This document shows, one piece after another, positions 1 through 29,243 of a DNA stretch of 29,243 nt. Every line of letters begins with the position of its first letter. The stretch's first letter is position 1. The position numbers were made by a program, and so were the translations under genes. The notes below the pieces were generated by a model that saw nothing but the letters and a program-made list of their open reading frames with translations, made no database searches and had not been told where the DNA came from. Origin of the DNA: a virus; IMG/VR virus record IMGVR_UViG_3300028025_002392, positions 1 to 29,243 of that record, one strand, 5' to 3'.

Positions 1-422
1 GTCTGTTCTATCCCTAGGGTGCCTAACTTCTCTATGAGCATAGTAGTGGTCAGGTAGCTCTCATATATCACAGGCTCTATGTAGATATCATTATCACAGT
101 AGTATACCCTCATCAGAGCTGTGGGGTGATTGTAACCAAAGTCTAAGCCATACACGTACTTGACAAACCTAGCAGGCCTATGAGCTACAAAGGACCAGTT
201 GCTGTAGATGTTACTCTTGCTTGTTGCCTTCTCACCTAGAGCATAGATCTGATACAGTGCCTCATCTGTTCTAGCTAGATCCTCTATCTGTGCCTTGATG
301 CTATCAGGTAGGAAGGGGTTATCTTTGTAGGTAGACTTTATCAGCGTGCTCTCCTCAGCAGGGAGCTCATACAGCCACGATACACTATCAGATGGGTTGT
401 AGTCAAAGATTAGCTTATCTTC
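1..422. repeat. Terminal direct repeat, left copy (terL; pairs with 28822-29243)
   Basis: Positions 1-422 align without gaps to 28822-29243, with 12 mismatches at 12, 51, 116, 129, 169, 246, 273-276, 311 and 411 (97.2% identity). This is the pattern left when a circularly permuted or circular phage genome is assembled past its own start, implying a unit of 28,821 bp. The mismatches are discussed as a finding because they look like two natural alleles rather than errors. Confidence 0.9.
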
Positions 423-4878: not shown

Positions 4879-4944
4879 ATCATTTCTATATTTTAAGGTT
4901 ATACGTTAATTATATTTTAGTGCGATTTTTAGTTAATTGTGGTG

Positions 4945-5017
4945 ATTAATACCTATATTTCATACTTTACGCTGTTTTATAGTTTTGTTTTGCTATTAAT
5001 ACCTATATTTCATACTT
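4945..5017. repeat. Two perfect 23-bp direct repeats, 50 bp apart
   Basis: The 23-bp sequence starting ATTAATACCTATATTTC occurs at 4945-4967 and again at 4995-5017. Each copy contains the AATATAGGTA 10-mer on the minus strand (4950-4959 and 5000-5009) and an ATG-initiated five-codon frame (MKYRY, then stop). They lie in the gene-free stretch 4879-5121, upstream of the 99-aa gene. Probable regulatory or promoter-linked sites. Confidence 0.75.
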
Positions 5018-5777: not shown

Positions 5778-8098
5778 ATCTTATTAATTTTAAACCATCT
5801 ACCACTAGCACTTCTACCTTTATCAAATGCATATCCTTTAAACTTGCAGTACTCATTAACCATCTTAAGATACTTTTGTGCATTTAGATCCTGCCATCCA
5901 CCTGTGTAAGTCTGAAAGTCCTGAATGGATGTATTGTTATAGTGCACCACATCTAAAGTGATGTTACCCTCAATAGCGTAATCATAAAACTCTTTGTTAG
6001 TAGCTGAGATAAATCTCTTATGATCTGCATTGATAGCTACAGCTTTAACTAAGCCCATTGATAGAAATTTTTGCAGGTTACTGATCATGTAATTATCAAA
6101 TACTAACCAATCTACCACACTCCAGCTGTCAAATAATAACCTACCGTACTCATCTAGTGGGTTTCGCTGTGCATTAAAGTACTGATTAAACTCTATCTCA
6201 TGCCTTCTCCTGTCATGGCTACCACCTGCACCACTTATCACATAGTTGGTAGTAATAACAATCTTAGGGGAGCGTTCAAATGGGATAAAGATCTCATCCT
6301 TATTTTTTCTGTTTACTGTAATCCCTTCTGAGATTAGTGAGAATAGCTGCTCAAAATCAAAGTTCTTTTTAACATCATCAAAGGCCAGGATCTGACTATC
6401 TAAATTTACCCTTTGGTATACAAAATCAGATTTCTGTGGGTTAAATGCTTTACCATCTATCTTAACTATATTTCTAATCTTACCTATGGCTGTAAGCACT
6501 AAACTTTTACCACTCCCTCCATTAGGGTTATCATCTATTTCCTGATCATTAAAAATTATTGCTTTCTGATCTGTTTTATCTTTGTAGGTGTGGAGTAAAT
6601 ATCCTAGGGTAGTCTCTAAGGCATTCACCCTCTGCTCATCATCTGCAGATACTTTGGATACAAAGCTCTTAAAGTCATTTTCTATGCTCTTAGTTGGCTT
6701 GTAATCCCTATCAATAATTTGTCTATCCCATATGTAGCCATCTATATCAATGTAGGGTACAATATCTATCTTATTCTTAGTAATCTTAACCACTCCATTA
6801 CGATAAGGTATAAAGCTCACATCCTTAGTATCCTGCAGCATCATTAAACCAATAGGCTCTAGCATAGATAAGTGACCATCTGTAAATAGGTAGGGACTTT
6901 TACTACAGTAGTTCCATACATCCACCTGCTTCTGCTTCATTAGGTAGGCTAAGACAAAATCTTTAACCTGGTCCACTGAGGATAGATTAACTTTATTTTC
7001 TATTACCCTCACAAAGGTGGGTTTCTCTGAGCGTTCAGGATAGTATTTGTTAAAGCCGTATTTGTACAGAAAATCTCTATACCTCATAGGATCTACACTA
7101 ACTACTTTCTTATCACTAATGGACCAGAATACATCCTCACTATTAGCTACATCCTTTTTAACATCCTCTACCACATCAGGCTTAATATCTAATTGCTTAG
7201 AGATATCACCAGGGGAGATACCCTCTTTTAGTTTTGACCTTACCTTTAAGATAGTTTCTTTATCCTCAAAATACTTAGTGCCTTTATTAGGGTTCTTATA
7301 AGCAGATCCTACACAGGTATTAATTTCTCCCTGAGTAAAGTCCTTAGCACTATATTGGTGAAGGTAAAATTTAGCAGTATTCTCACTAATGCCATACTCA
7401 CAAAAACAGTTAGCTACTTTAAATACCCAATTATTTCTCCCACCTGATATATCTCCATGGTTAAACTTCATTATATTCTCAATGATATTAGCTTCATTAG
7501 TCATGGGTAGCACTGGCACCCTTTCAAATGAGCTATGTCCTTTCTCCTCTTCTATAAGATTAAATACCTCAGCATCTAAATTGATATAGGCAGTAGGATC
7601 ATAAGACTCAAAGCACACTCTGCTAACATTACAGCTAGATGCATCAAAGTAATCACTATCAATAAACTCCTGAAAGGCTTTAAACCTTCTCTTATGTGTA
7701 AATTTATCAGATGGTGGTATCTTAATCACGCATTTTAGCCCTTTACCGGATGGTGATATGAATATCATAAACACATTAGGGCACTCCATTAGTCTAGCCT
7801 TCTCAGCTTTCATAACCTTACTGCTAGGGTAATCATCAAAATCTAATATACAAAGCCCTGAGTGCTCTATTAGGCCATTATCATTACGTTCATTAAAGGT
7901 GCCATTAAACATGATAGCTCTAAGGCTGTTTTTTAGGCTGCTGTATGCAGGATCATCCTCCTCCATAGCTCTAAGAGCAGTTATCTTATCAATAAGCTCG
8001 GGGTAGCCTTCCTTTATCCTATTGTAAACATCCACCACATCCTGAGTGTAGGGAGTTTCTTTAGAATTGAACAGGCTTTTAAATACAGATATATTCAT
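5774..8098 (-). CDS. Bifunctional primase-helicase
   Basis: The 774-aa replication initiator. Residues 80-180 carry primase-like (VirE N-terminal/BT4734 type) motifs: CILDFDD at 83-89 (D86, D88) and SPSGKGLK at 115-122. Residues 220-265 (NNWVFKVANCFCEYGI) look like a PriCT helical domain. Residues 515-640 are a superfamily 3/D5-like helicase: Walker A GGSGKS at 527-532, Walker B LAFDD at 571-575, KIVITTNY at 612-619 and an arginine-finger-like HDRRRHEIEF at 628-637. No DNA polymerase is encoded, so this protein probably primes and unwinds for the host replisome. The iteron-like gap directly upstream is the likely origin. Confidence 0.92.
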   Translation of the reverse strand: MNISVFKSLFNSKETPYTQDVVDVYNRIKEGYPELIDKITALRAMEEDDPAYSSLKNSLRAIMFNGTFNERNDNGLIEHSGLCILDFDDYPSSKVMKAEKARLMECPNVFMIFISPSGKGLKCVIKIPPSDKFTHKRRFKAFQEFIDSDYFDASSCNVSRVCFESYDPTAYINLDAEVFNLIEEEKGHSSFERVPVLPMTNEANIIENIMKFNHGDISGGRNNWVFKVANCFCEYGISENTAKFYLHQYSAKDFTQGEINTCVGSAYKNPNKGTKYFEDKETILKVRSKLKEGISPGDISKQLDIKPDVVEDVKKDVANSEDVFWSISDKKVVSVDPMRYRDFLYKYGFNKYYPERSEKPTFVRVIENKVNLSSVDQVKDFVLAYLMKQKQVDVWNYCSKSPYLFTDGHLSMLEPIGLMMLQDTKDVSFIPYRNGVVKITKNKIDIVPYIDIDGYIWDRQIIDRDYKPTKSIENDFKSFVSKVSADDEQRVNALETTLGYLLHTYKDKTDQKAIIFNDQEIDDNPNGGSGKSLVLTAIGKIRNIVKIDGKAFNPQKSDFVYQRVNLDSQILAFDDVKKNFDFEQLFSLISEGITVNRKNKDEIFIPFERSPKIVITTNYVISGAGGSHDRRRHEIEFNQYFNAQRNPLDEYGRLLFDSWSVVDWLVFDNYMISNLQKFLSMGLVKAVAINADHKRFISATNKEFYDYAIEGNITLDVVHYNNTSIQDFQTYTGGWQDLNAQKYLKMVNEYCKFKGYAFDKGRSASGRWFKINKI

Positions 8099-10723: not shown

Positions 10724-10734
10724 TTTAAAGCGTT

Positions 10735-10872
10735 TTAAAGGTTAGTAATGTAAGCTAAGGTATAAACACTCACCCAAAACAATATAAACACCATAGCAGT
10801 GCTTAAAATGTCTCTATGCTCATCTGTAAGGGGTGTAAAGTAATACACAAGGTCGGTTAGTTTCTTTCTCAT
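10735..10872 (-). CDS. Small membrane protein, 45 aa
   Basis: ATG at 10872, stop at 10735-10737. It begins MRKKLTDLVYYFTPLTDEHR and then forms one membrane helix (STAMVFILFWVSVYTLAYI). The basic N-terminus suggests it stays inside. The start codon overlaps the stop of the 59-aa gene as ATGA, the same coupling used elsewhere in the cassette. Function unknown. Confidence 0.6.
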   Translation of the reverse strand: MRKKLTDLVYYFTPLTDEHRDILSTAMVFILFWVSVYTLAYITNL

Positions 10873-11048
10873 TTCTTTTGAATTTTGTAAATGTTATCAA
10901 TTGCTTTAATTTCTGCAGATATTAACTGTGATCTCTCCATAGCTAGAGCTACATCACAGATACTTTCCCATTGCTTGTCAGTAAAAGCTTTGTTTGTGTT
11001 AATTTGCTGGAGTAGGTACTCAACAGCTGTTTGTTTTTGATCATTCAT
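10869..11048 (-). CDS. First early gene; TAVEYL-type protein, 59 aa
   Basis: ATG at 11048, stop at 10869-10871. It starts MNDQKQTAVEYLLQQINTNK and continues to ALAMERSQLISA. It resembles a shortened form of the protein at 4579-4878 (QTAVEWLVEQI). It is the first gene downstream of the main early promoter candidate (TATATTTG at 11080-11073). Function unknown. Confidence 0.65.
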   Translation of the reverse strand: MNDQKQTAVEYLLQQINTNKAFTDKQWESICDVALAMERSQLISAEIKAIDNIYKIQKK

Positions 11049-11344
11049 ATTGGTTAGTTTTAATTAGTGTTGCAAATATACGTACTTACAATGAATTGTT
11101 TACAACTTTAGTGTAATTTATAATCATTCTAAATAAGGAATGTAAAGGAATAGCCTTAAATTATACATGAGAAGTAAGGTGATAACCTTAAATATACTTG
11201 ACAAAAAGTGGTTAATATGTTAGTTATATATTACATTATGCCACCATTCTAGCTACTATGTTAGTTATAACCAACATTACAAATCTACGGTAGTGGTTAG
11301 CTTTTACCGTTAAATTGTGTCACAAATCTTTGTAGAATTAGGAC
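11049..11344. other. Gene-free regulatory gap before the early operon
   Basis: No open frame of interest was seen. Besides the early promoter it contains a 13-bp direct repeat, TATGTTAGTTATA (11216-11228 and 11257-11269). It also has an imperfect repeat around CCTTAAATATACTTGA (about 11153-11170 and 11186-11201) and a 23-nt element (11193-11215) matching 20 of 23 positions with 5028-5050. These look like binding sites for a regulator. It separates the convergent end of the late operon from the start of the early one. Confidence 0.55.
11073..11105 (-). promoter_or_regulatory. Main early promoter candidate
   Basis: On the minus strand TTGT (11105-11102), a 21-nt spacer and TATATTTG (11080-11073) fit the Bacteroidota vegetative promoter (TTTG, 19-21 nt, TAnnTTTG). 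The first early gene starts 24 nt downstream. The -7 box and the leader closely resemble those upstream of erf (4340-4371). Confidence 0.6.
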
Positions 11345-11384
11345 AAAAAAAACCCCCTGCTAAACTAACCAAAGGTGCAGAGGG
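11345..11384 (-). terminator. Rho-independent terminator of the late/lysis operon
   Basis: On the minus strand CCCTCTGC (11384-11377) pairs with GCAGGGGG (11360-11353) across a 16-nt loop, with one G-T wobble, and is followed by eight T residues (11352-11345). It lies about 40 nt after the metallophosphoesterase stop, so it ends the late transcript before the early promoter. Confidence 0.85.
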
Positions 11385-11422
11385 CTTAGGTAACACATTG
11401 GGCGTATTAACCTAGTGCAAAA

Positions 11423-16176: not shown

Positions 16177-16716
16177 TTAAGATATTCCGATAAGAGCTAA
16201 AGCAGTAGGAGTCATATCTACTTCATAAGCTAAGTACTCATTTTCAGCTACCAAAGTTACAGCATATTTAGAACCATCTGCTCTAGCAGTTCCTGATCCT
16301 TCAGCTACTGCAGAAACTTGCAAGTAAGGGAAGTACCAATACTTACCATTAGCATCTAATACTACTGCAGTAAGATACTGTTGACCTGATCCCAAAATTT
16401 TGATAGCTCTAGACTTATCAGCTTCACGTCTGTGAAACATTAAAGCAATAGTCTGAGTAATAAAAGATGATCCATTAACTAAATCTATAGCAGCCTCTTC
16501 TGTAAAGCTAGAGGTGTTTCTACGGATGTAATAGTTCTCAAACAATACAGTACCTGCTAAAGTGATAGCAGTAATTTCCCAGCCTGCACCCAAAGAAGGG
16601 TCTACAGGTGTAATAGAAGCGATTTCATCCTGTTGGTTAATCCATATTCCATAGATACCCCCACTGTTATTATCGCAACTTTTTAAAATGGCCTCGAGGG
16701 CTTGACATGTTGGCAT
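16177..16716 (-). CDS. Probable major tail tube protein
   Basis: A 179-aa protein. The start, ALEAILKSCDNNSGGIYGIW, and the end, GSGTARADGSKYAVTLVAEN followed by EVDMTPTALA, match the layout of tail tube proteins in Bacteroidota siphoviruses. There a G.G.A..D...Y..TL.G.E pattern precedes the C-terminus. It lies directly after the major capsid gene, separated only by a small hairpin, and before a terminator, fitting a highly expressed virion protein. A capsid accessory protein is the main alternative. Confidence 0.65.
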   Translation of the reverse strand: MPTCQALEAILKSCDNNSGGIYGIWINQQDEIASITPVDPSLGAGWEITAITLAGTVLFENYYIRRNTSSFTEEAAIDLVNGSSFITQTIALMFHRREADKSRAIKILGSGQQYLTAVVLDANGKYWYFPYLQVSAVAEGSGTARADGSKYAVTLVAENEYLAYEVDMTPTALALIGIS

Positions 16717-17725: not shown

Positions 17726-18109
17726 TTATTGGTTGTTAAATTTATTGAATTTACTTAATTTTTGCTGTACGCTCATCTTTACAGCCTCCTCCATTGTCTC
17801 CTCTTCTGTTTCAGTAACTAAAGACTCTTCTAATTGATTTTTCAAATCAGCTATCATAGCCACAAGTGCATCTACTTGCTCAGTAATTAATGGTCGTACT
17901 ATCTCTAGTATTGCCTCAGCATCCATAGCAGGATCTACAGCCATAGTTTCCTCTTCTACTACTTCCTCCTCTTCTACTACTGTATCAGTCATTGCTTCCT
18001 CTTCTACTACTACTTCCTCTTCTTTTTCTCTAATTTCAGTGATCTCACCATCAACAACAACGTATATTTTGCCGTCAATTAAGTGTTCACCATCAGGTAA
18101 TTTATTCAT
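17726..18109 (-). CDS. Possible nested scaffold protein (internal start), 127 aa
   Basis: In frame within the protease gene, Met193 (ATG at 18109) begins exactly where the scaffold-like part starts: MNKLPDGEHLIDGKIYVVV. The sequence before it, AACTTAAACTAAATAATATG, is A/T-rich like other gene leaders here. The arrangement copies lambda C/Nu3, where the scaffold is made from an internal start in the protease gene. Evidence is positional only. Confidence 0.4.
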   Translation of the reverse strand: MNKLPDGEHLIDGKIYVVVDGEITEIREKEEEVVVEEEAMTDTVVEEEEVVEEETMAVDPAMDAEAILEIVRPLITEQVDALVAMIADLKNQLEESLVTETEEETMEEAVKMSVQQKLSKFNKFNNQ

Positions 18110-18685
18110 ATTATTTAGTTTAAGTTGTTGCTGTTCTTTGAGCTTCATACCTAGATATCCCTCTATGCTGAAACCTACCTGCCCATCTGCTACCAGTTGT
18201 GCATAGTATTCTTTATCTGTTACCTGAGCTGTAACCATTAGAGTGCCTTCAGGTACCTCTATCCCAAAACTAGAATAGGCTTTATCCTCTTTAGGAGTAT
18301 CTACTATCCATGCTTCCAATACATAAGCAGGTACAGTCTTATCAGTATCATGCTCTAGGTTAAAGAGATCCTTGTTACTCATATCACGCATAAACTTTGC
18401 ATGAATTTTCTCTATCTCCTCAATTGAAAACTTAACATAGTACTCTTTACCATCCTCATCATCCTTCCTATAGATCTCCATAGGGATAAGAGCAGGTGCT
18501 ACTATGCGATACTTAAGATCATCTGTAAATATCATAGGCTTAACCTGGCTATTGAAAGCCATACCCATTACTTTGATAGCAGGAGTGGATGTAAAAGCAA
18601 TTTGTTCTATACCTAAGTCCTCCCCATTTTCAGAGTATTCAGGATCTATAGTAATCTTGTAAACAGGTAAGTTATCTTTTGCCAT
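17726..18685 (-). CDS. Prohead protease (XkdF-like) with scaffold-like C-terminus
   Basis: From the ATG at 18685 the protein is 319 aa. Residues 1-185 look like the XkdF/prohead serine protease: LFNLEHD (107-113, catalytic H112) and VGFSIEGY (170-177, catalytic S173). Residues 193-319 are different: a beta-hairpin element, GEHLIDGKIYVVVDGEITEI, then runs of glutamate (EEEVV repeats) and coiled coil, as in scaffolding domains. It therefore probably guides capsid assembly and then matures the shell. An open frame extends upstream to 18817 but would overlap the divergent plus-strand gene and lacks family similarity. The AATATAGGTA motif abuts the chosen ATG. Confidence 0.82.
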   Translation of the reverse strand: MAKDNLPVYKITIDPEYSENGEDLGIEQIAFTSTPAIKVMGMAFNSQVKPMIFTDDLKYRIVAPALIPMEIYRKDDEDGKEYYVKFSIEEIEKIHAKFMRDMSNKDLFNLEHDTDKTVPAYVLEAWIVDTPKEDKAYSSFGIEVPEGTLMVTAQVTDKEYYAQLVADGQVGFSIEGYLGMKLKEQQQLKLNNMNKLPDGEHLIDGKIYVVVDGEITEIREKEEEVVVEEEAMTDTVVEEEEVVEEETMAVDPAMDAEAILEIVRPLITEQVDALVAMIADLKNQLEESLVTETEEETMEEAVKMSVQQKLSKFNKFNNQ

Positions 18686-18728
18686 ACCTATATTATAATA
18701 ATTCATATATTTGTAAAAAAAATTAACT
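18685..18728. promoter_or_regulatory. Divergent intergenic region with signals on both strands
   Basis: This short gap separates the minus-strand protease gene from the plus-strand chaperone-like pair. On the minus strand AATATAGGTA (18694-18685) abuts the protease ATG, with TTATTAT just upstream. On the plus strand TATATTTG (18706-18713) matches the host -7 consensus and lies 15 nt before the ATG at 18729. A TTTG at 18678-18681 could be -33, though the 24-nt spacer is long. The two directions may therefore use different promoter types. Confidence 0.5.
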
Positions 18729-19271
18729 ATGGTAACTATTTTAGGAAGGGAGATCCCCAACAAAATTGAAGAGCTAACTATTGAGCAGTTCGAAGCAATT
18801 ACAGATATTAATAACAATAAAGAGATAGATCCTGTGGATAGGCATCTGCAAATCTTTGAGTATCTAGGAATCCCTGAAAAGGAGTTCTTTGACTTTGATA
18901 TAGCAGAATTTATTGATATTGTTAAAGAGTTTAATTCTGCTCAGGATCCTATGCAAAATCAGGAAGCTGTAACTATTTTAGAATTGGATGGCTTTACATA
19001 TACTGCAGAGCTTAAGCTAACAGTACGTGAAACTAAGCTAATAGAAAAGATTGCCATCCACAAACAGAAGGGGTACATATCAGATATGATGGCAGTGATG
19101 TTTAAAGCAGATCACTTAACTAATGCAGAGCACTATGCAGAAGCTCACCTTAAGTTAAAGTCTAAGCTAATCAGAAAATTGAAAGCTGAGTTATGCATCC
19201 CTTATATTATGTTTGTGGCTAACAAGGTAAAAAACCAAGTAGAGAATGTACCTACCGAAGCAGTGGAGTGA
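18729..19271 (+). CDS. Putative tail assembly chaperone 1 (plus strand)
   Basis: A 180-aa helical, acidic protein starting MVTILGREIPNKIEELTIEQ, with a central beta part (TILELDGFTYTAELKLTV) and a basic helical C-terminus (LKLKSKLIRKLKAELC). The EELTIEQFEAITDI segment resembles SEVTLEQFMEIAEI in the next gene, so the two are paralogues. Between capsid/tube and tape-measure genes, phages place tail-assembly chaperones (lambda G/GT type), and this pair fits by position and character. It is one of only two plus-strand genes. Role inferred. Confidence 0.6.
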   Translation: MVTILGREIPNKIEELTIEQFEAITDINNNKEIDPVDRHLQIFEYLGIPEKEFFDFDIAEFIDIVKEFNSAQDPMQNQEAVTILELDGFTYTAELKLTVRETKLIEKIAIHKQKGYISDMMAVMFKADHLTNAEHYAEAHLKLKSKLIRKLKAELCIPYIMFVANKVKNQVENVPTEAVE

Positions 19272-19983
19272 GGTAACTCTTGAGCAGTTCATGGAGATTG
19301 CTGAGATAGACAAAGAGCAGGGTGCCTACCACTATAATAGTGAGATACTTTCCATCATCACAGATGAGCCCCCTGAGTCTATTGAGGATATGGATATAGA
19401 TGAGCTCAAAGGTTACATAGATGAGTGCAAGTGGGCACTATCACAGCCATCTAATAAATACAAGTCAGAGCTTCTAGGTATGAAGGCTAAGCCCTTTAAT
19501 AAATTGTGCCTCTATGAGTACATAGATCTAGATTATTATTTCACCACTAACTACATTAAAAACCTTGCTAATATATGTGGTGTACTGTACAGGCAAAGTA
19601 AACTAAATGAATGGGGTGAGGAGGTGCTAGAGCCTTATGAGTATGATTGTACTATCAGAGCTGATAAGTTCTTAGACCTTCCCATCACAGATGTTTATGG
19701 CATCATTAATGAGTTTCTAAAGTTTAGAGAGAATTTTGTTAAGGTATATCAAAACTTATTTCAAGGTGATGAGTTACCTGAGTTAACACCAGAAGAGAAA
19801 GCAGAGCTCACACCTGATGAGTTAAAAGATGAGGAGGATGCTAAGAAAGATAGCAAATGGAGTTGGGAGCGAATGATCTACGGCCTATGCAATAATGATC
19901 TAACTAAGTCTGATAAGATAGGAGCTCTACCCCTTACCTACGTATTCAATATGATGGGTATGAAAAAAGAATTAGACATCTAA
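19246..19983 (+). CDS. Putative tail assembly chaperone 2 (plus strand)
   Basis: A 245-aa protein starting MYLPKQWSEVTLEQFMEIAE. The middle contains KPFNKLCLYEYIDLDYYFTT and NLANICGVLYRQ; later DLPITDVYGIINEFLKFREN; then an acidic linker (ELTPEEKAELTPDELKDEED) and WSWERMIYGLCNNDLTKSDK. I associate this pattern with a conserved protein of Bacteroidota phage tail regions. Its ATG lies 26 nt inside the first gene in the +1 frame, so translation is probably coupled. Its 3' end overlaps the convergent minus-strand gene by 12 nt. The chaperone role is inferred. Confidence 0.6.
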   Translation: MYLPKQWSEVTLEQFMEIAEIDKEQGAYHYNSEILSIITDEPPESIEDMDIDELKGYIDECKWALSQPSNKYKSELLGMKAKPFNKLCLYEYIDLDYYFTTNYIKNLANICGVLYRQSKLNEWGEEVLEPYEYDCTIRADKFLDLPITDVYGIINEFLKFRENFVKVYQNLFQGDELPELTPEEKAELTPDELKDEEDAKKDSKWSWERMIYGLCNNDLTKSDKIGALPLTYVFNMMGMKKELDI

Positions 19984-20442
19984 GGGCGTTCCCTGGACAA
20001 ATCCTGGAGGTGCAAATAGTGCCTCAAATGTATAGACTAGCTTTCTATTTTTTTCTAATACTTCTACAGCTTCTAGTATAGGATATCTTTTATTTAACCA
20101 TGCAGTATACTGAGTATATATTTCAGCAGTAATACCTGCACTACCCAAAGCAATAGTAAACTTAGAGACAAAATCTCTAGGTGCTATAGATCCACCATTA
20201 GGGCCATATGCATTACTAGTTACAGGCACCCCATTATTTAAAAAGATAAAGTAATAAGCTGCTACTATCTGTATCTCTAGCTTCTCAAAGCCTGTAACCT
20301 TAGCATTAATTCTTATTGAGCTTACTAGTGTGCCTTCAGGATCTTCTAGTTCAGCATCTACTATTTTCTTAAGGATATTTGCCATCCTTCTCCTAGTAGG
20401 ATATAGCACATTAAATTCTCCAGTGTTTGCGTATCTACCCAT
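19972..20442 (-). CDS. Probable tail/neck completion protein (gp10-like), 156 aa
   Basis: It shows YYFIFLNNGVPVTSN (about 63-77), then GSIAPRDFVSKF, a layout like HK97 gp10/virion morphogenesis proteins, where an (E/N)xG loop and a PR.F motif occur in the middle. An N-terminal arginine-rich helix (YPTRRRMANILKKIV) follows a short leader. It lies between the fibre-like gene (one-base overlap) and the convergent chaperone pair. Assignment is tentative. Confidence 0.5.
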   Translation of the reverse strand: MGRYANTGEFNVLYPTRRRMANILKKIVDAELEDPEGTLVSSIRINAKVTGFEKLEIQIVAAYYFIFLNNGVPVTSNAYGPNGGSIAPRDFVSKFTIALGSAGITAEIYTQYTAWLNKRYPILEAVEVLEKNRKLVYTFEALFAPPGFVQGTPLDV

Positions 20443-21184: not shown

Positions 21185-21619
21185 TTAAATCGGCACAGCA
21201 CAATCAGTCCAATCATTAACTGTTAAGGTGATACTCATCTGGTATCCTGCAGCGTAATCTAGTAGATCGTTATTCAAAGGTGTAAAGGTAGGCACTCCTA
21301 CCACATCAAAGCTGTAGTCAGTGCTATCCATGTAATAGATGTACAAATCATTTAAGATCTGTTGCGTATCACTTAGAATAGTTATGATGTTAGCTCTATC
21401 CTTTTGTATGATATCATAGCAGAATATATCAAAGCTAAACTCTGTAGTGTTCTCTGTAGGGATTACACCACTGGGTACAATATACACCAGGGGGTACTTC
21501 TCATCCTGAGTAGCAAAGTTATATAGCTGTTCTTTGAAGTCACTGCCTACCTTAAAGACTTGTTTGTGAGCTGTGTAAAAAGCAATGATGTGGTTTGTTA
21601 TGGCTTGTAGGGAATTCAT
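21185..21619 (-). CDS. Tail terminator/completion protein
   Basis: A 144-aa protein with YPLVYIVPSG (about 38-47), FSFDIFCYD (about 59-67), ILSDTQQILNDLYIYY (about 81-96) and a C-terminal MSITLTVNDWTDCAVPI. This succession is the one I associate with Bacteroidota phage tail terminators, which cap the tube and join it to the neck. It lies directly after the tape-measure gene with a 4-nt overlap. Confidence 0.7.
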   Translation of the reverse strand: MNSLQAITNHIIAFYTAHKQVFKVGSDFKEQLYNFATQDEKYPLVYIVPSGVIPTENTTEFSFDIFCYDIIQKDRANIITILSDTQQILNDLYIYYMDSTDYSFDVVGVPTFTPLNNDLLDYAAGYQMSITLTVNDWTDCAVPI

Positions 21620-23976
21620 AGTTCTGCTGATTTATTTATACGGTTTATTTTTTGTTGGGTGGATGTTACTTGTGTCTCAGATACTACAGCTGTTACAGTC
21701 ATATTGCCTGACTCACTAGAGCTACCTCCTGCACTCATGGTGCCACCTGTGTTAGCACTACCAAATAATTGAGCTGCCTGTGGTAAAGCTGTTGCTGTTG
21801 AGGTAGCTCCTCCTCCACCTGCATCACCTCCTCCACCACCTGCTGATGGGGTTGCACCTGGAGATGATAGTATCTGTTTAGCCTTAATCACATTGGTAGC
21901 AATCTGTATAATACCACTAGCAAATTGTGCAATACCTGCAGCACCAAATGATACACCATTCAATGGGTTAGCATTAGAAGCAGCCACCAATGCACTAATA
22001 GCCTTAGCAGTATCTATACCTATTTGAATAAGAGCACTGGCCTTGTTAAATTTCTCTAATTTCTTTTGGTCCTTAATGAGCATGCCTCCTAAATTAGCAA
22101 GTCCATCTACTGTATCTTTAGCAAATCCTAGCTTTGCATCCCTTTCTTTTTGTGCCTCTGCTACCTTAGCATTAGAAGCCTCTATATCTATGTTAGCTAA
22201 TCTATCTGCATGAGCTTTGGCTAGAGCTTCTAAGGTCTCATAGTTACCGTTGGCAGTTTCTATATCTAAAAGATACTGAGCGTTCTCAGCTTCCTTTTGT
22301 TTTGTTACCTCATCCTGCATAGATAGCAATAGATCCTGCTGAGCCTTTACCCTTTCAGCTTCTTGTGCTGCATTCTGTGCTCTCTCCTGCTCATCATAAA
22401 TAGCTACTAGTTCTGCTTTCTGTTCAGCTGTTAAGGTGATGTTAGCCAGTGCATCTGCTCTTAGTTTATCATATTGTGCAGCTTGTGCTAACTGTTCTTT
22501 CTCAAAGCCTTCCTCCATGGCAGCGAATTTAGCATCAGCTATCATAGCATCCCCATTAATTAAGTTCTGAGCATAGGTAGTTTTGATAGCTTCTATTTCT
22601 TTATTCTTTAGAGTCTCAGCATTGGCTAATATAGCAAGCTCCTCTGCACTTAGTTTAGTGGTAGCTGTTAGTCTTAGCTCAGCTAACTTTTGGTTATACT
22701 GATCCTCAGTTAATTTCTTTGCTAAGAATTGCTTATCTAATCCCTCTATCTCTTTCTTTAATCTCTCATCTATGAACGTTTTTTGGTAGTCAGTAAAAGC
22801 CTGGTTTCTAATTGCAATATCTTTATCAATACCATTCTCCATTAAAGCTAATAGCCCTTTGATATTCTCATCCTCTAGTTTTATTTTATCAGCATTGTGT
22901 GCTTTAATATCATCTAGCCGTTCCTTTAAAGTATTCTTAGTTCCTGCTGTCCCTTTCTTTTCTTCCTTTGGCTTTTCAGCATCTCTCTTCTGCTGCTCTA
23001 TCTCAAGTATCTTATATTCATTAAGGCTGTTTCTCCTAGCCTCACCCATATCATTGATAGTTTTATTAGCATTATCCATTGCCTTAGTAGACTCATCTAT
23101 ACGTTTTTTCCTGTCCTCTTCAGATATGTTTAGTGTAGCAAGTTCAGCTATATTTAGCTTCATTTGTTTTACCGTAAGCATTGCAGTCTTTATCTGCTCA
23201 GTTTGATAAGCAATGGAAGCTCTTATCTTAGCCCTAGATAGTTCATAGGTATCCTTACCCTCAGCTTTCGCCAAAGCAATTTTCCTATCATAATCTCCCA
23301 TCTCTTTTTTGTTAGCATCACCTAACATTTGAGACTTCTTTTCATTGGCAGCTATTTGCTCATCTATTCTCTCTAGCTCATTTTTGCCCATCTCCTCACC
23401 TGCATTATCAGTAAGTCCCATCCAATCGGTAAGCATCTCAAATCCTTTGATAAGTAAATTAAGTGGAAGCATTAAGGCATCTATTACTACCTGAAGTACA
23501 CCAAATTTTTTCATTACCAAAACAATAGCTACCACAATAGCTACGATAACAGCTACCAATAAAAAGATTGGATTTGCAAGTAGTTGTATTCCTAATCTCA
23601 CAAAGGTACTACCCAAGGTTGTTACTGTCTTAGTTAAAGCTCCCATCCCTGCAGTTATCATTTTTGGATCCACTCCCTTCATAGCTGTAGAGAAGGTCTT
23701 AGCTTTACTTGCTGCCTCTTCAAAGTCTAGACTCATTAACGAGTCCTTAATACCACCTAATCCATTACTAACCTGCTCAAATTTTGAGCCTGTAGCAAAG
23801 ACAGCTACTGACTCATTAGCATCCTTTATCTTATCAGATAGTTCACCTGCTGCCTGAGATAACCTAGCAATATCTGCAGGATCTGTAGCATTAGCAATCT
23901 CACCTTTGAGTGCTTTTAGTTCTGCTTTAATGGCACCTAGGCCAGAGACTTTTATGGGTATTTCTACTTCATTCAT
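21616..23976 (-). CDS. Tape measure protein
   Basis: A 786-aa protein. The N-terminus is helical (AIKAELKALKGEIAN). Two hydrophobic membrane-like segments lie at about 137-155 (LLVAVIVAIVVAIVLVM) and 158-177. Long coiled coils with many Lys/Glu/Gln run from about 200 to 650. A second hydrophobic helical block (ALIQIGIDTAKAISALVAAS) precedes a Gly/Ser-rich tail (GGGGGDAGGGG). This is the usual layout of tape measures, which set tail length and form a channel during injection. At roughly 1.5 angstrom per residue, 786 aa suggests a tail near 120 nm. Confidence 0.92.
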   Translation of the reverse strand: MNEVEIPIKVSGLGAIKAELKALKGEIANATDPADIARLSQAAGELSDKIKDANESVAVFATGSKFEQVSNGLGGIKDSLMSLDFEEAASKAKTFSTAMKGVDPKMITAGMGALTKTVTTLGSTFVRLGIQLLANPIFLLVAVIVAIVVAIVLVMKKFGVLQVVIDALMLPLNLLIKGFEMLTDWMGLTDNAGEEMGKNELERIDEQIAANEKKSQMLGDANKKEMGDYDRKIALAKAEGKDTYELSRAKIRASIAYQTEQIKTAMLTVKQMKLNIAELATLNISEEDRKKRIDESTKAMDNANKTINDMGEARRNSLNEYKILEIEQQKRDAEKPKEEKKGTAGTKNTLKERLDDIKAHNADKIKLEDENIKGLLALMENGIDKDIAIRNQAFTDYQKTFIDERLKKEIEGLDKQFLAKKLTEDQYNQKLAELRLTATTKLSAEELAILANAETLKNKEIEAIKTTYAQNLINGDAMIADAKFAAMEEGFEKEQLAQAAQYDKLRADALANITLTAEQKAELVAIYDEQERAQNAAQEAERVKAQQDLLLSMQDEVTKQKEAENAQYLLDIETANGNYETLEALAKAHADRLANIDIEASNAKVAEAQKERDAKLGFAKDTVDGLANLGGMLIKDQKKLEKFNKASALIQIGIDTAKAISALVAASNANPLNGVSFGAAGIAQFASGIIQIATNVIKAKQILSSPGATPSAGGGGGDAGGGGATSTATALPQAAQLFGSANTGGTMSAGGSSSESGNMTVTAVVSETQVTSTQQKINRINKSAEL

Positions 23977-26857: not shown

Positions 26858-28325
26858 TTACGATATTGTTATTAGCTAGCTTAATAGTTACGTTCTGCTT
26901 AATTAAATTCTTGTTGCGTTGGTTGTATACCTGGTAGTCTGAGGTCATGATGTTACAGCTGATGTACTCCTCACTCTCAGGCACATCACAGTCATTTGCA
27001 TAAGAGCTTTGCTTTACATATGTGAATGGTGATGAGATGAGCTCAGTAAAGTAGTTAGCCATGTCCATAGTCATGAAGTTGGTAGCTAGATCTATGGTAG
27101 TGTCAGTGCTTACATAGGTGTTAGTCATACCTCTCTCAGTGAGGGCATAGTCCCACTCATTACTACCATTGATAAAACCAGGCACATCCTGATTAAACTG
27201 CTCACGTGTTACGTTACCTTTCTCATAGCTGTTAAGGCTAAAGGCAAAGCTGTTCCATGAGCCCATACGATCTAAGAATAAGATGCTGTACTCGGTGGTG
27301 CGTATCCTTCTATCTAGTGTTACCCTGTACCTTGCTGAGCTCATCACTCCATTACGTTCATAGTGGAAGTCATAGTACTCAGTGGTAGGCTCTATCAAGT
27401 TACCTGATCCAAAGATAAGAGTAAGCACCCCAAAGTTATTAGGCCCTACTGATACACCACTCACATGATCTGCAGCTGTTACGTTCTTTTCAAAGATGTT
27501 ACCACCATCATTAGCAAACACCATTGTATCTGGAGCCGTTGGTGATCCATTAGCTATGCAGTTTACCCACATATCCTGCGATAGGGTAGCGTACATATTC
27601 TTGTTACCTGCAGGGTAGTTAGTCAGGAACCTATCAAAGATGCCATTGAGCATGAAGTCCTGGTAGTTATAGCTTGGCCACTCAGCCCAATTGATAGCAC
27701 CGTTGAATACATACTTGTTAAGCTGTTGTGCTAGGTTTCTGTTTACTGTCTTACGGCCATCTGCATATGTTATATCTCCATCCTTATTGGCATTGACTAT
27801 CTGAGACCATAAGCTGTTCACTACTATGTAAGCAGGGTTAGCTACTAGCACAGTGAAGAGCCCCTCTAAGTTGGGGTTGGTTACACCTGCACCTGTTTGC
27901 ACTATATTGATTTGATCACCTACTAGAAATGTGTTAGCTACGTTTATCTGTACCCTTCCTACATAAGGGGCTATTAGATATTGGGTTAATGCAAAGGTGT
28001 AACTAGTGGTAGTCAAGTACTCCTCCCCTATCCTTACATCATATTTGTAGTGGCTGTTAGTGGCGTTGTATACTGAGGTGTTATTCAAGTTCAGGTCATA
28101 GCTTACCTTAGCCTGTAACAGCTTCGATAGATCTATCTCACCAAAGCCAGTGGCATAAGTTGGGAGCACCCTGTACTCTGCTATCTTATTTAGCGTACCA
28201 CTCTGATAGATATCATAGATAAACTTGAAGCCCTGCAGGTTTACATTGCTACTGCTGTAGATGTACTTAACAGGGTTGTATGCAGGAACTATTACTTGTG
28301 GGGTTGCTTGTGCTACTAATGCCAT
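26850..28325 (-). CDS. Distal tail protein, 491 aa
   Basis: A beta-rich protein. Features: YNPVKYIYSSSNVNLQGFKF (about 17-36), FIYDIYQSG, EYRVLPTYATGFGEIDLSKL (about 51-70), and a middle VANTFLVGDQINIVQTG segment like a small beta barrel; it ends VTIKLANNNIVNG. I associate this layout with a conserved tail protein of Bacteroidota phages encoded before the hub. A Dit-like or baseplate adaptor role fits its place between terL and the hub gene. Not resolved further from sequence alone. Confidence 0.65.
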   Translation of the reverse strand: MALVAQATPQVIVPAYNPVKYIYSSSNVNLQGFKFIYDIYQSGTLNKIAEYRVLPTYATGFGEIDLSKLLQAKVSYDLNLNNTSVYNATNSHYKYDVRIGEEYLTTTSYTFALTQYLIAPYVGRVQINVANTFLVGDQINIVQTGAGVTNPNLEGLFTVLVANPAYIVVNSLWSQIVNANKDGDITYADGRKTVNRNLAQQLNKYVFNGAINWAEWPSYNYQDFMLNGIFDRFLTNYPAGNKNMYATLSQDMWVNCIANGSPTAPDTMVFANDGGNIFEKNVTAADHVSGVSVGPNNFGVLTLIFGSGNLIEPTTEYYDFHYERNGVMSSARYRVTLDRRIRTTEYSILFLDRMGSWNSFAFSLNSYEKGNVTREQFNQDVPGFINGSNEWDYALTERGMTNTYVSTDTTIDLATNFMTMDMANYFTELISSPFTYVKQSSYANDCDVPESEEYISCNIMTSDYQVYNQRNKNLIKQNVTIKLANNNIVNG

Positions 28326-28537: not shown

Positions 28538-29243
28538 CAGTGTAATACTCCTGCCTTATGTGAGTAGTGGCATATCTAATTGCATCCATGGCATCATCAA
28601 ATAATTTAACAGGCTCATCTGTTATGAAGTCCCCTATCTTTTTCCATTTGTAATTCTCATACTCTCTCTTTACTGCCTTATCATCCTGGCATATTACCCC
28701 AAAGGTCTTAAGGTTGTCTATGCCTTTCTTAACTACCTTGTTTGCGTTCTGGACATCATACCCTGCTATGTTCATCTCTTGGATGATTTCTGGTCTTGAG
28801 TAATCTGCTAAGATGGTTACGGTCTGTTCTATGCCTAGGGTGCCTAACTTCTCTATGAGCATAGTAGTGGTGAGGTAGCTCTCATATATCACAGGCTCTA
28901 TGTAGATATCATTATCACAGTAGTATACCCTCATCAAAGCTGTGGGGTGGTTGTAACCAAAGTCTAAGCCATACACGTACTTGACAAACTTAGCAGGCCT
29001 ATGAGCTACAAAGGACCAGTTGCTGTAGATGTTACTCTTGCTTGTTGCCTTCTCACCTAGAGCATATATCTGATACAGTGCCTCATCTGTTCTCTTGAGA
29101 TCCTCTATCTGTGCCTTGATGCTATCAGGTAAGAAGGGGTTATCTTTGTAGGTAGACTTTATCAGCGTGCTCTCCTCAGCAGGGAGCTCATACAGCCACG
29201 ATACACTATCAGATGGGTTGTAGTCAAAGATGAGCTTATCTTC
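28515..29243 (-). CDS. terL: Terminase large subunit, C-terminal part (cut by window edge)
   Basis: Open to the right edge, 242 residues corresponding to residues 141-382 of the joined protein. It includes the nuclease domain: LDFGYNHP (first metal Asp), ILADYSRPEI (second acidic site) and KLFDDAMDAIRYA (third). An internal GTG at 28976 is not the start, because the frame continues upstream without a stop and matches the left copy. Residues 141-280 duplicate the left fragment with two replacements (R225K and A190K relative to the left copy). No catalytic motif is affected. Confidence 0.93.
   Translation of the reverse strand, partial: EDKLIFDYNPSDSVSWLYELPAEESTLIKSTYKDNPFLPDSIKAQIEDLKRTDEALYQIYALGEKATSKSNIYSNWSFVAHRPAKFVKYVYGLDFGYNHPTALMRVYYCDNDIYIEPVIYESYLTTTMLIEKLGTLGIEQTVTILADYSRPEIIQEMNIAGYDVQNANKVVKKGIDNLKTFGVICQDDKAVKREYENYKWKKIGDFITDEPVKLFDDAMDAIRYATTHIRQEYYTDDSYYAF
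28822..29243. repeat. Terminal direct repeat, right copy (terL; pairs with 1-422)
   Basis: Gap-free match to 1-422 with 12 substitutions. Taken with the terL frame crossing it, this supports a circular map of 28,821 bp. Confidence 0.9.

Follow-up and report, generated by a model that had tools for sequence, protein, structure and literature searches.

The window, by which we mean the whole 29,243-nt stretch of viral DNA analysed (IMG/VR record IMGVR_UViG_3300028025_002392), carries two overlapping genes on its plus strand: ORF1 (18729..19271; 180 aa), a predicted short (G-type) tail assembly chaperone on the basis of G-family homology, and ORF2 (19246..19983; 245 aa), a predicted tail assembly chaperone of the long (GT) type, read in a single frame, on the basis of homology to GT fusions. 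The coordinates and strands given in an initial annotation of this DNA are exact, as is its overlap of 26 nt (19246..19271, plus strand), although overlap length is not fixed in relatives, where it ranges from 17 to 53 nt and is always 2 mod 3. ORF1 diverges from the gene for a head maturation protease (17726..18685, minus strand; Pfam Peptidase_S78_2, E=9e-8), and ORF2 converges with the gene for a neck/tail-completion-like protein (19972..20442, minus strand), so named from its position and its resemblance to gp42 of Nonlabens phage P12024S, which matches PHROG Neck1 at 4e-4. The two ORFs are the sole conserved plus-strand genes of the window; no further plus-strand ORF in it has family support, the others being short, mostly TTG-started and mostly overlapping minus-strand genes. 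ORF1 has 481 relatives among IMG/VR matches. In the relative loci, which are not all independent as some contigs were fetched more than once, ORF1 lies on the plus strand in 259/259 cases and ORF2 in 254/254, minus-strand protease and neck-like genes stand on either side of the pair in 238, and no plus-strand gene was seen among the recognised neighbours in ~255. The earlier observation that the pair runs opposite to all other genes thus holds across relatives, an arrangement far beyond chance. At two relative loci (L067/L068) ORF1 is 57% identical to that of the window, compared with 92% for the protease and 78% for ORF2, and the exchange of ORF1 alleles between subclades is a possible reading of these identities.

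The two ends of the window (1-422 and 28822-29243) have 422 nt in common at 97% identity, and a single terminase large subunit gene is divided between them; the window can therefore be regarded as a near-complete siphovirus-like phage genome of ~28.8 kb. This end overlap inside the terminase gene indicates a circular or circularly permuted contig with population variation at the join. The lineage appears to be one of freshwater Bacteroidota phages, and its nearest isolates by protease and portal proteins are the Nonlabens phages P12024S/L, at 22-28% amino-acid identity. A search of genome contigs gave a single 3.9-kb contig binned as Sphingomonadaceae (L209), which is probably misbinned phage DNA and does not point to a host.

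In the direction of transcription the minus strand encodes TerS, TerL, a 70-aa protein (g70), a 491-aa protein (g491), a 959-aa protein and the 786-aa probable tape measure protein, followed by a 144-aa tail-terminator-like protein, a 237-aa fibre-like protein (g237) and the 156-aa neck-like protein; beyond the plus-strand pair come the XkdF-type protease, a capsid candidate, a tube candidate, a 116-aa protein (g116) and the portal, and then a DUF6712 protein, holin, amidase, and replication and recombination genes. The probable tape measure protein (21616..23976, minus strand) has coiled-coil and membrane-like segments and is the counterpart of P12024S gp49, which matches a PHROG tape measure family at 2e-4. 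It is very variable among relatives (41-96% identity), ORF1, ORF2 and the tail terminator being far less so. PHROG 19091 takes in both P12024S gp03 and gp09 (2149-2694 and 5953-6552) and window positions 16177-16716, giving two tube-like paralogues in P12024S and one recognised copy in the window phage.

The gp38 family of Nonlabens phage P12024S

The lead to the function of the pair came from P12024S gp38 and gp39, which lie just after TerL; the KWSW...PL motif seen at the C terminus of ORF2 recurs in gp39. The two are on record as separate hypothetical proteins, and together with their relatives they appear to form an unannotated G/GT chaperone family (P12024S, L145, 23136-23830; L146-L208). 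A family built from gp38 and relatives comprised 44 distinct sequences, and in all 44 G genes a slippery run of nine T residues (T9) falls at the FF codons of FFYHLGND. Phenylalanine codons at the slip site are TTT in 88/88 cases, as against 209/406 (51%) elsewhere in the same genes. The -1 frame is open past the G stop and encodes a domain with KWGWY...IYALAKGDI, and the WGW/WSW of this T domain was found in the -1 frame of 44/44 G/GT genes. The T9 run and the open -1 frame with its T domain therefore indicate that the gp38-family gene is frameshift-coded, arranged as G and GT are in lambda (PMC5009743), although the T9 run could also act through transcriptional slippage, as well as through ribosomal frameshifting. 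At 63 loci (63 viral contigs) the gene order is TerL-(g70)-G/GT-tail terminator-neck on one strand, and several of these loci have a TerS 55-71% identical to that of the window. On its architecture, slippery site and synteny, the gp38 family thus seems to be a G/GT chaperone family.

In other phages, relatives of the window's tail-terminator-like protein g144 (21185..21619, minus strand) adjoin the G/GT gene. The G/GT slot of the window is empty, since g70 and g491 there meet directly at 28325. No relative with a G/GT gene elsewhere and without the pair was seen, and the ORF1 profile found no ORF1-type paralogue in 16 G/GT phage records, which are partial and were searched without a positive control.

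Relationship of ORF2 and ORF1 to the G/GT family

ORF2 aligned end to end with conceptual frameshifted GT fusions (hhalign P=6.8e-21 over 226 columns), and matched both a T-only profile from which the early LSFR motif had been left out (P=9.4e-11) and the G part alone (P=1.1e-9); these values are approximate, the profiles being narrow (Neff about 1.7-2.8), and 16 unrelated window families used as controls gave P>=0.02 against the G, ORF1 and ORF2 profiles. When the GT profile was run over 190 window ORFs, ORF2 scored E=1e-18, and in the reverse direction the ORF2 profile recovered the -1 frame T ORF in 14/16 G/GT phage records (best 2.6e-8). The core of the T domain, KWSWERMIYGLCNNDLTKSDKIGALPLTYVFNMMGMKKELDI, lies at 19855..19980 (plus strand), and the EFLKFR codons at 19711..19728 (plus strand) are the counterpart of the FF(L)SFR codons that follow the G/GT slippery site. 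At this G/T junction, where T9 is invariant in 44/44 G/GT genes, the 192 relatives of ORF2 read, for example, GAGTTCCTGAAGTTCAGG, and no slippery heptamer was found in any of the 192 loci. An AlphaFold (AF2) model of ORF2 has a pLDDT of 81 and matches the fold of P12024S gp38 (E=1.9e-7) as well as numerous unnamed viral proteins. By these comparisons ORF2 is a GT protein read in one frame. A weak fold match to the ORF2 model is also present in Flavobacterium phage 6H.

The case for ORF1 is moderate, as judged from sequence comparison. ORF1 matches the gp38 G family over its N-terminal half (hhalign P=8e-6) and ranks second of the 190 window ORFs with the G and GT profiles (E=0.005 and 0.003), ORF2 and ORF1 alone passing the inclusion threshold. 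It has no T domain by the T-only profile and no conserved slippery heptamer. Its structural model is weak (pLDDT 51), and its BFVD fold matches are largely common to ORF2; one of them, A0A6J7X091, is 49% identical to ORF1 and is also matched by the ORF2 model. Compared directly, the two proteins are only weakly alike (hhalign P=0.0055 over 21 columns, or 0.008 when more sequences are used), and their relatedness is convincing only via the G/GT family and the structural matches they have in common. The N-terminal segment that the initial annotation had described as shared is present as (L/I)P-x4-E-(V/L)-T-(I/L)-EQF, but the position it gave as (E/W) reads I in ORF1. Its proposal of a paralogous pair of tail chaperones is borne out by homology to the frameshift-coded family; what it missed is that ORF1 corresponds to the short form (G) and ORF2 to the long in-frame form (GT), with no frameshift. 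Pfam and PHROG scans of ORF1 and ORF2 gave nothing below 1e-3, sequence comparison with solved structures and tblastn against annotated phages gave no match, and annotated chaperones appeared among the BFVD fold matches only at E 0.35 and 0.9. A fold search of the PDB with ORF2 likewise gave no significant match, solved chaperones included, which by itself does not imply that the fold is new.

ORF1 is far more diverged from G than is ORF2 (approximate P=8e-6 vs 1e-9), and in a global alignment it matches G only weakly, as could be the case if ORF2 were an obligate GT protein sufficient as the sole tail chaperone and ORF1 a diverged paralogue serving tail or neck assembly in some other role. 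We consider this unlikely, given that ORF1 is the one window ORF besides ORF2 above inclusion with the G and GT profiles, that it overlaps ORF2 and is co-conserved with it in relatives, and that the two have structural neighbours in common. In addition, when G and T are permanently fused in frame in a TP901-1 mutant, the particles look complete but are non-infectious (PMC4493119), so that such a fusion is non-functional alone and an in-frame GT protein plausibly requires G from elsewhere, for which ORF1 is a possible source.

Promoter-like motifs and translation starts

The initial annotation had placed a host-type box 15 nt before the ORF1 ATG, and this was recovered as TATATTTG (18706..18713, plus strand), which fits the Bacteroidota -7 element TAnnTTTG (PMC2483708). 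It precedes ORF1 in 196/196 loci (56 distinct intergenic sequences), at 14-17 nt in relatives and with varying surrounding bases, and this full conservation backs the further claim that the pair has a separate promoter type, from which that annotation had proposed independent timing or dose of the chaperones. A -33 TTTG at canonical spacing from TATATTTG was not found, many relatives having TTG 23-25 nt upstream, and a sigma-70 scan gave nothing that exceeded shuffles, as expected with this type of host. Further copies of TATATTTG lie upstream of the Erf gene (minus strand, 4371), near 2596 and in the gap at 10.7-11.4 kb (minus strand, 11080). This gap (10724-11422) comprises ~700 nt with no long ORF, also holds a 26-nt direct repeat at 11213/11254, and is a possible origin or early control region.

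The divergent protease gene has a signal of its own, as had been noted: its start reads ...AATATAGGTATGG on the minus strand, a AATATAGGTA signal (18685..18694, minus strand) running into its ATG, and the form TACCTATAT occurs in 176/196 relative loci. The start signal AATATAGGTATG is found at the protease gene and directly before the ATGs of the structural genes g237 and g116. The TATATTTG octamer also precedes non-structural genes, and AATATAGGTATG goes with the protease, g237 and g116 structural genes, which suggests two promoter classes in the genome, with the chaperone pair in the host-type class. Repeats of AATATAGGTA occur on the minus strand near 18692, 21162, 16098, 28343, 5007, 4957 and 1657, often running into an ATG (protease, g237, g116), which makes AATATAGGTA a candidate for a late promoter or a start signal in this phage. 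Positions 4912-5011 are non-coding and consist of two tandem 50-nt units, 72% alike, each with TTAATACCTATATTTC at its end, and thus hold two spaced signal copies.

Opposite orientation and a host-type promoter are also what an inserted module of anti-defence or host take-over genes, lying among structural genes by chance, might present, and the stretch before the protease in P12024S does contain small genes in a reversed block, together with a methyltransferase. The initial annotation had offered such an accessory module as its alternative. This reading is not backed by the data and in our view can hardly be correct: the pair is homologous to G/GT, it is present and inverted in all relative loci, and a genome deprived of it would have a tape measure protein but no chaperone candidate.

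The overlap raises a separate question, because at 2 mod 3 throughout it would allow one kind of shift (+1 or -2) to fuse ORF1 and ORF2 in every relative. Recoding of this sort is very unlikely. Overlap length varies from 17 to 53 nt, there is no conserved slippery heptamer (the commonest occurs in 11/120), the ORF2 ATG is retained even where its position has shifted, and any overlap that evolves by 3-nt indels should keep its frame. The product would moreover be a G-G-T protein, for which we know of no precedent.

The flavobacterial ribosome site TAAAA (PMC2483708) occurs 2-12 nt before the start in 68/107 ORF1 contexts vs 4/115 ORF2 contexts, and upstream A+T content is 87% for ORF1 vs 66% for ORF2. 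Considering the computed homology and domain layout, the absence of a conserved slippery site, and the conserved orientation and promoter-like motif, we think it very probable that ORF1 and ORF2 are G and in-frame GT tail chaperones, under their own conserved Bacteroidota-type promoter, that replace the frameshift. Chaperone activity, binding partners, ratio control and expression time, as well as the direction of evolutionary change, are our inferences. In lambda, many G and few GT molecules bind the tape measure protein and T recruits the tube protein, at a G:GT ratio of about 30:1 that is crucial (PMC5009743). By analogy, ORF1 would coat the tape measure protein, and the C-terminal T domain of ORF2 would recruit the protein of the tail tube. 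Elsewhere slip frequency sets how far G exceeds GT; here translation initiation would do so, with stronger initiation at ORF1 and the ORF2 start sitting inside the end of ORF1. The host-type promoter would give early or constitutive expression of the pair.

Comparison with known chaperone systems and evolution

The pair and the genes of P12024S gp38/gp39 and the IMG/VR G/GT phages encode homologous G and T domains within the same set of packaging, neck and tail-tip genes. In those phages, unlike in the window, G/GT is a single gene, annotated hypothetical, that contains a T9 slippery site and encodes T in the -1 frame, and it adjoins TerL on the late-gene strand. Lambda G/GT and TP901-1 gpG/gpT resemble the pair in having a short and a long form with a common N-terminal domain, the long form with a C-terminal T domain, and a tape measure gene in the genome. 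The window pair differs from both in being two genes without a frameshift, on the opposite strand, and in being neither directly upstream of nor collinear with the 786-aa tape measure gene, from which three genes separate it. No sequence similarity to lambda G was detectable in family scans.

T4-like phages are reported to have two-gene chaperones consisting of one short gene and one longer fused gene (Vladimirov et al., 2022, as described in PMC10885494). On that description they are like the window pair in combining a short gene with a longer gene fused to a downstream part, without a frameshift. T4-like phages are myoviruses, however, whereas the window derives from a ~29 kb siphovirus-like phage with frameshift-using relatives, and its genes are paralogues that overlap, run in the inverted direction and follow a conserved host-type promoter. 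In a Pfam scan, ORF1 and ORF2 had no match to T4 proteins at E<=0.1. The two-gene solution is thus already reported from T4-like phages, and the window represents a separate lineage in which it is inverted and differently regulated.

A frameshift-coded G/GT gene seems to have been replaced in this lineage by a G gene and an in-frame GT gene that were moved, inverted and placed behind a host-type promoter. By parsimony the frameshift-coded state would be ancestral, and in the simplest history the gene would have been relocated and inverted, been duplicated and lost the slip, the direction and order of these steps being putative. It is a real possibility, to which we give a little less than even weight, that the lineage went from frameshift dosage to gene-duplication dosage, the same rearrangement removing the chaperones from late transcription and leaving G:GT to be set by two starts. 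If this is true, synthesis of the chaperones would precede that of the tail proteins that they handle, or be independent of it.

The G:GT frameshift is a textbook case of dosage control and is widely conserved in long-tailed phages. The present work identifies an unannotated T9 G/GT family in Bacteroidota-type phages and names the predicted chaperones of an abundant freshwater phage group. A clade without the frameshift beside frameshifting sister groups constitutes a natural experiment on the purpose of the frameshift, and this lineage would allow one to test which is essential: the ratio, co-translation or timing.
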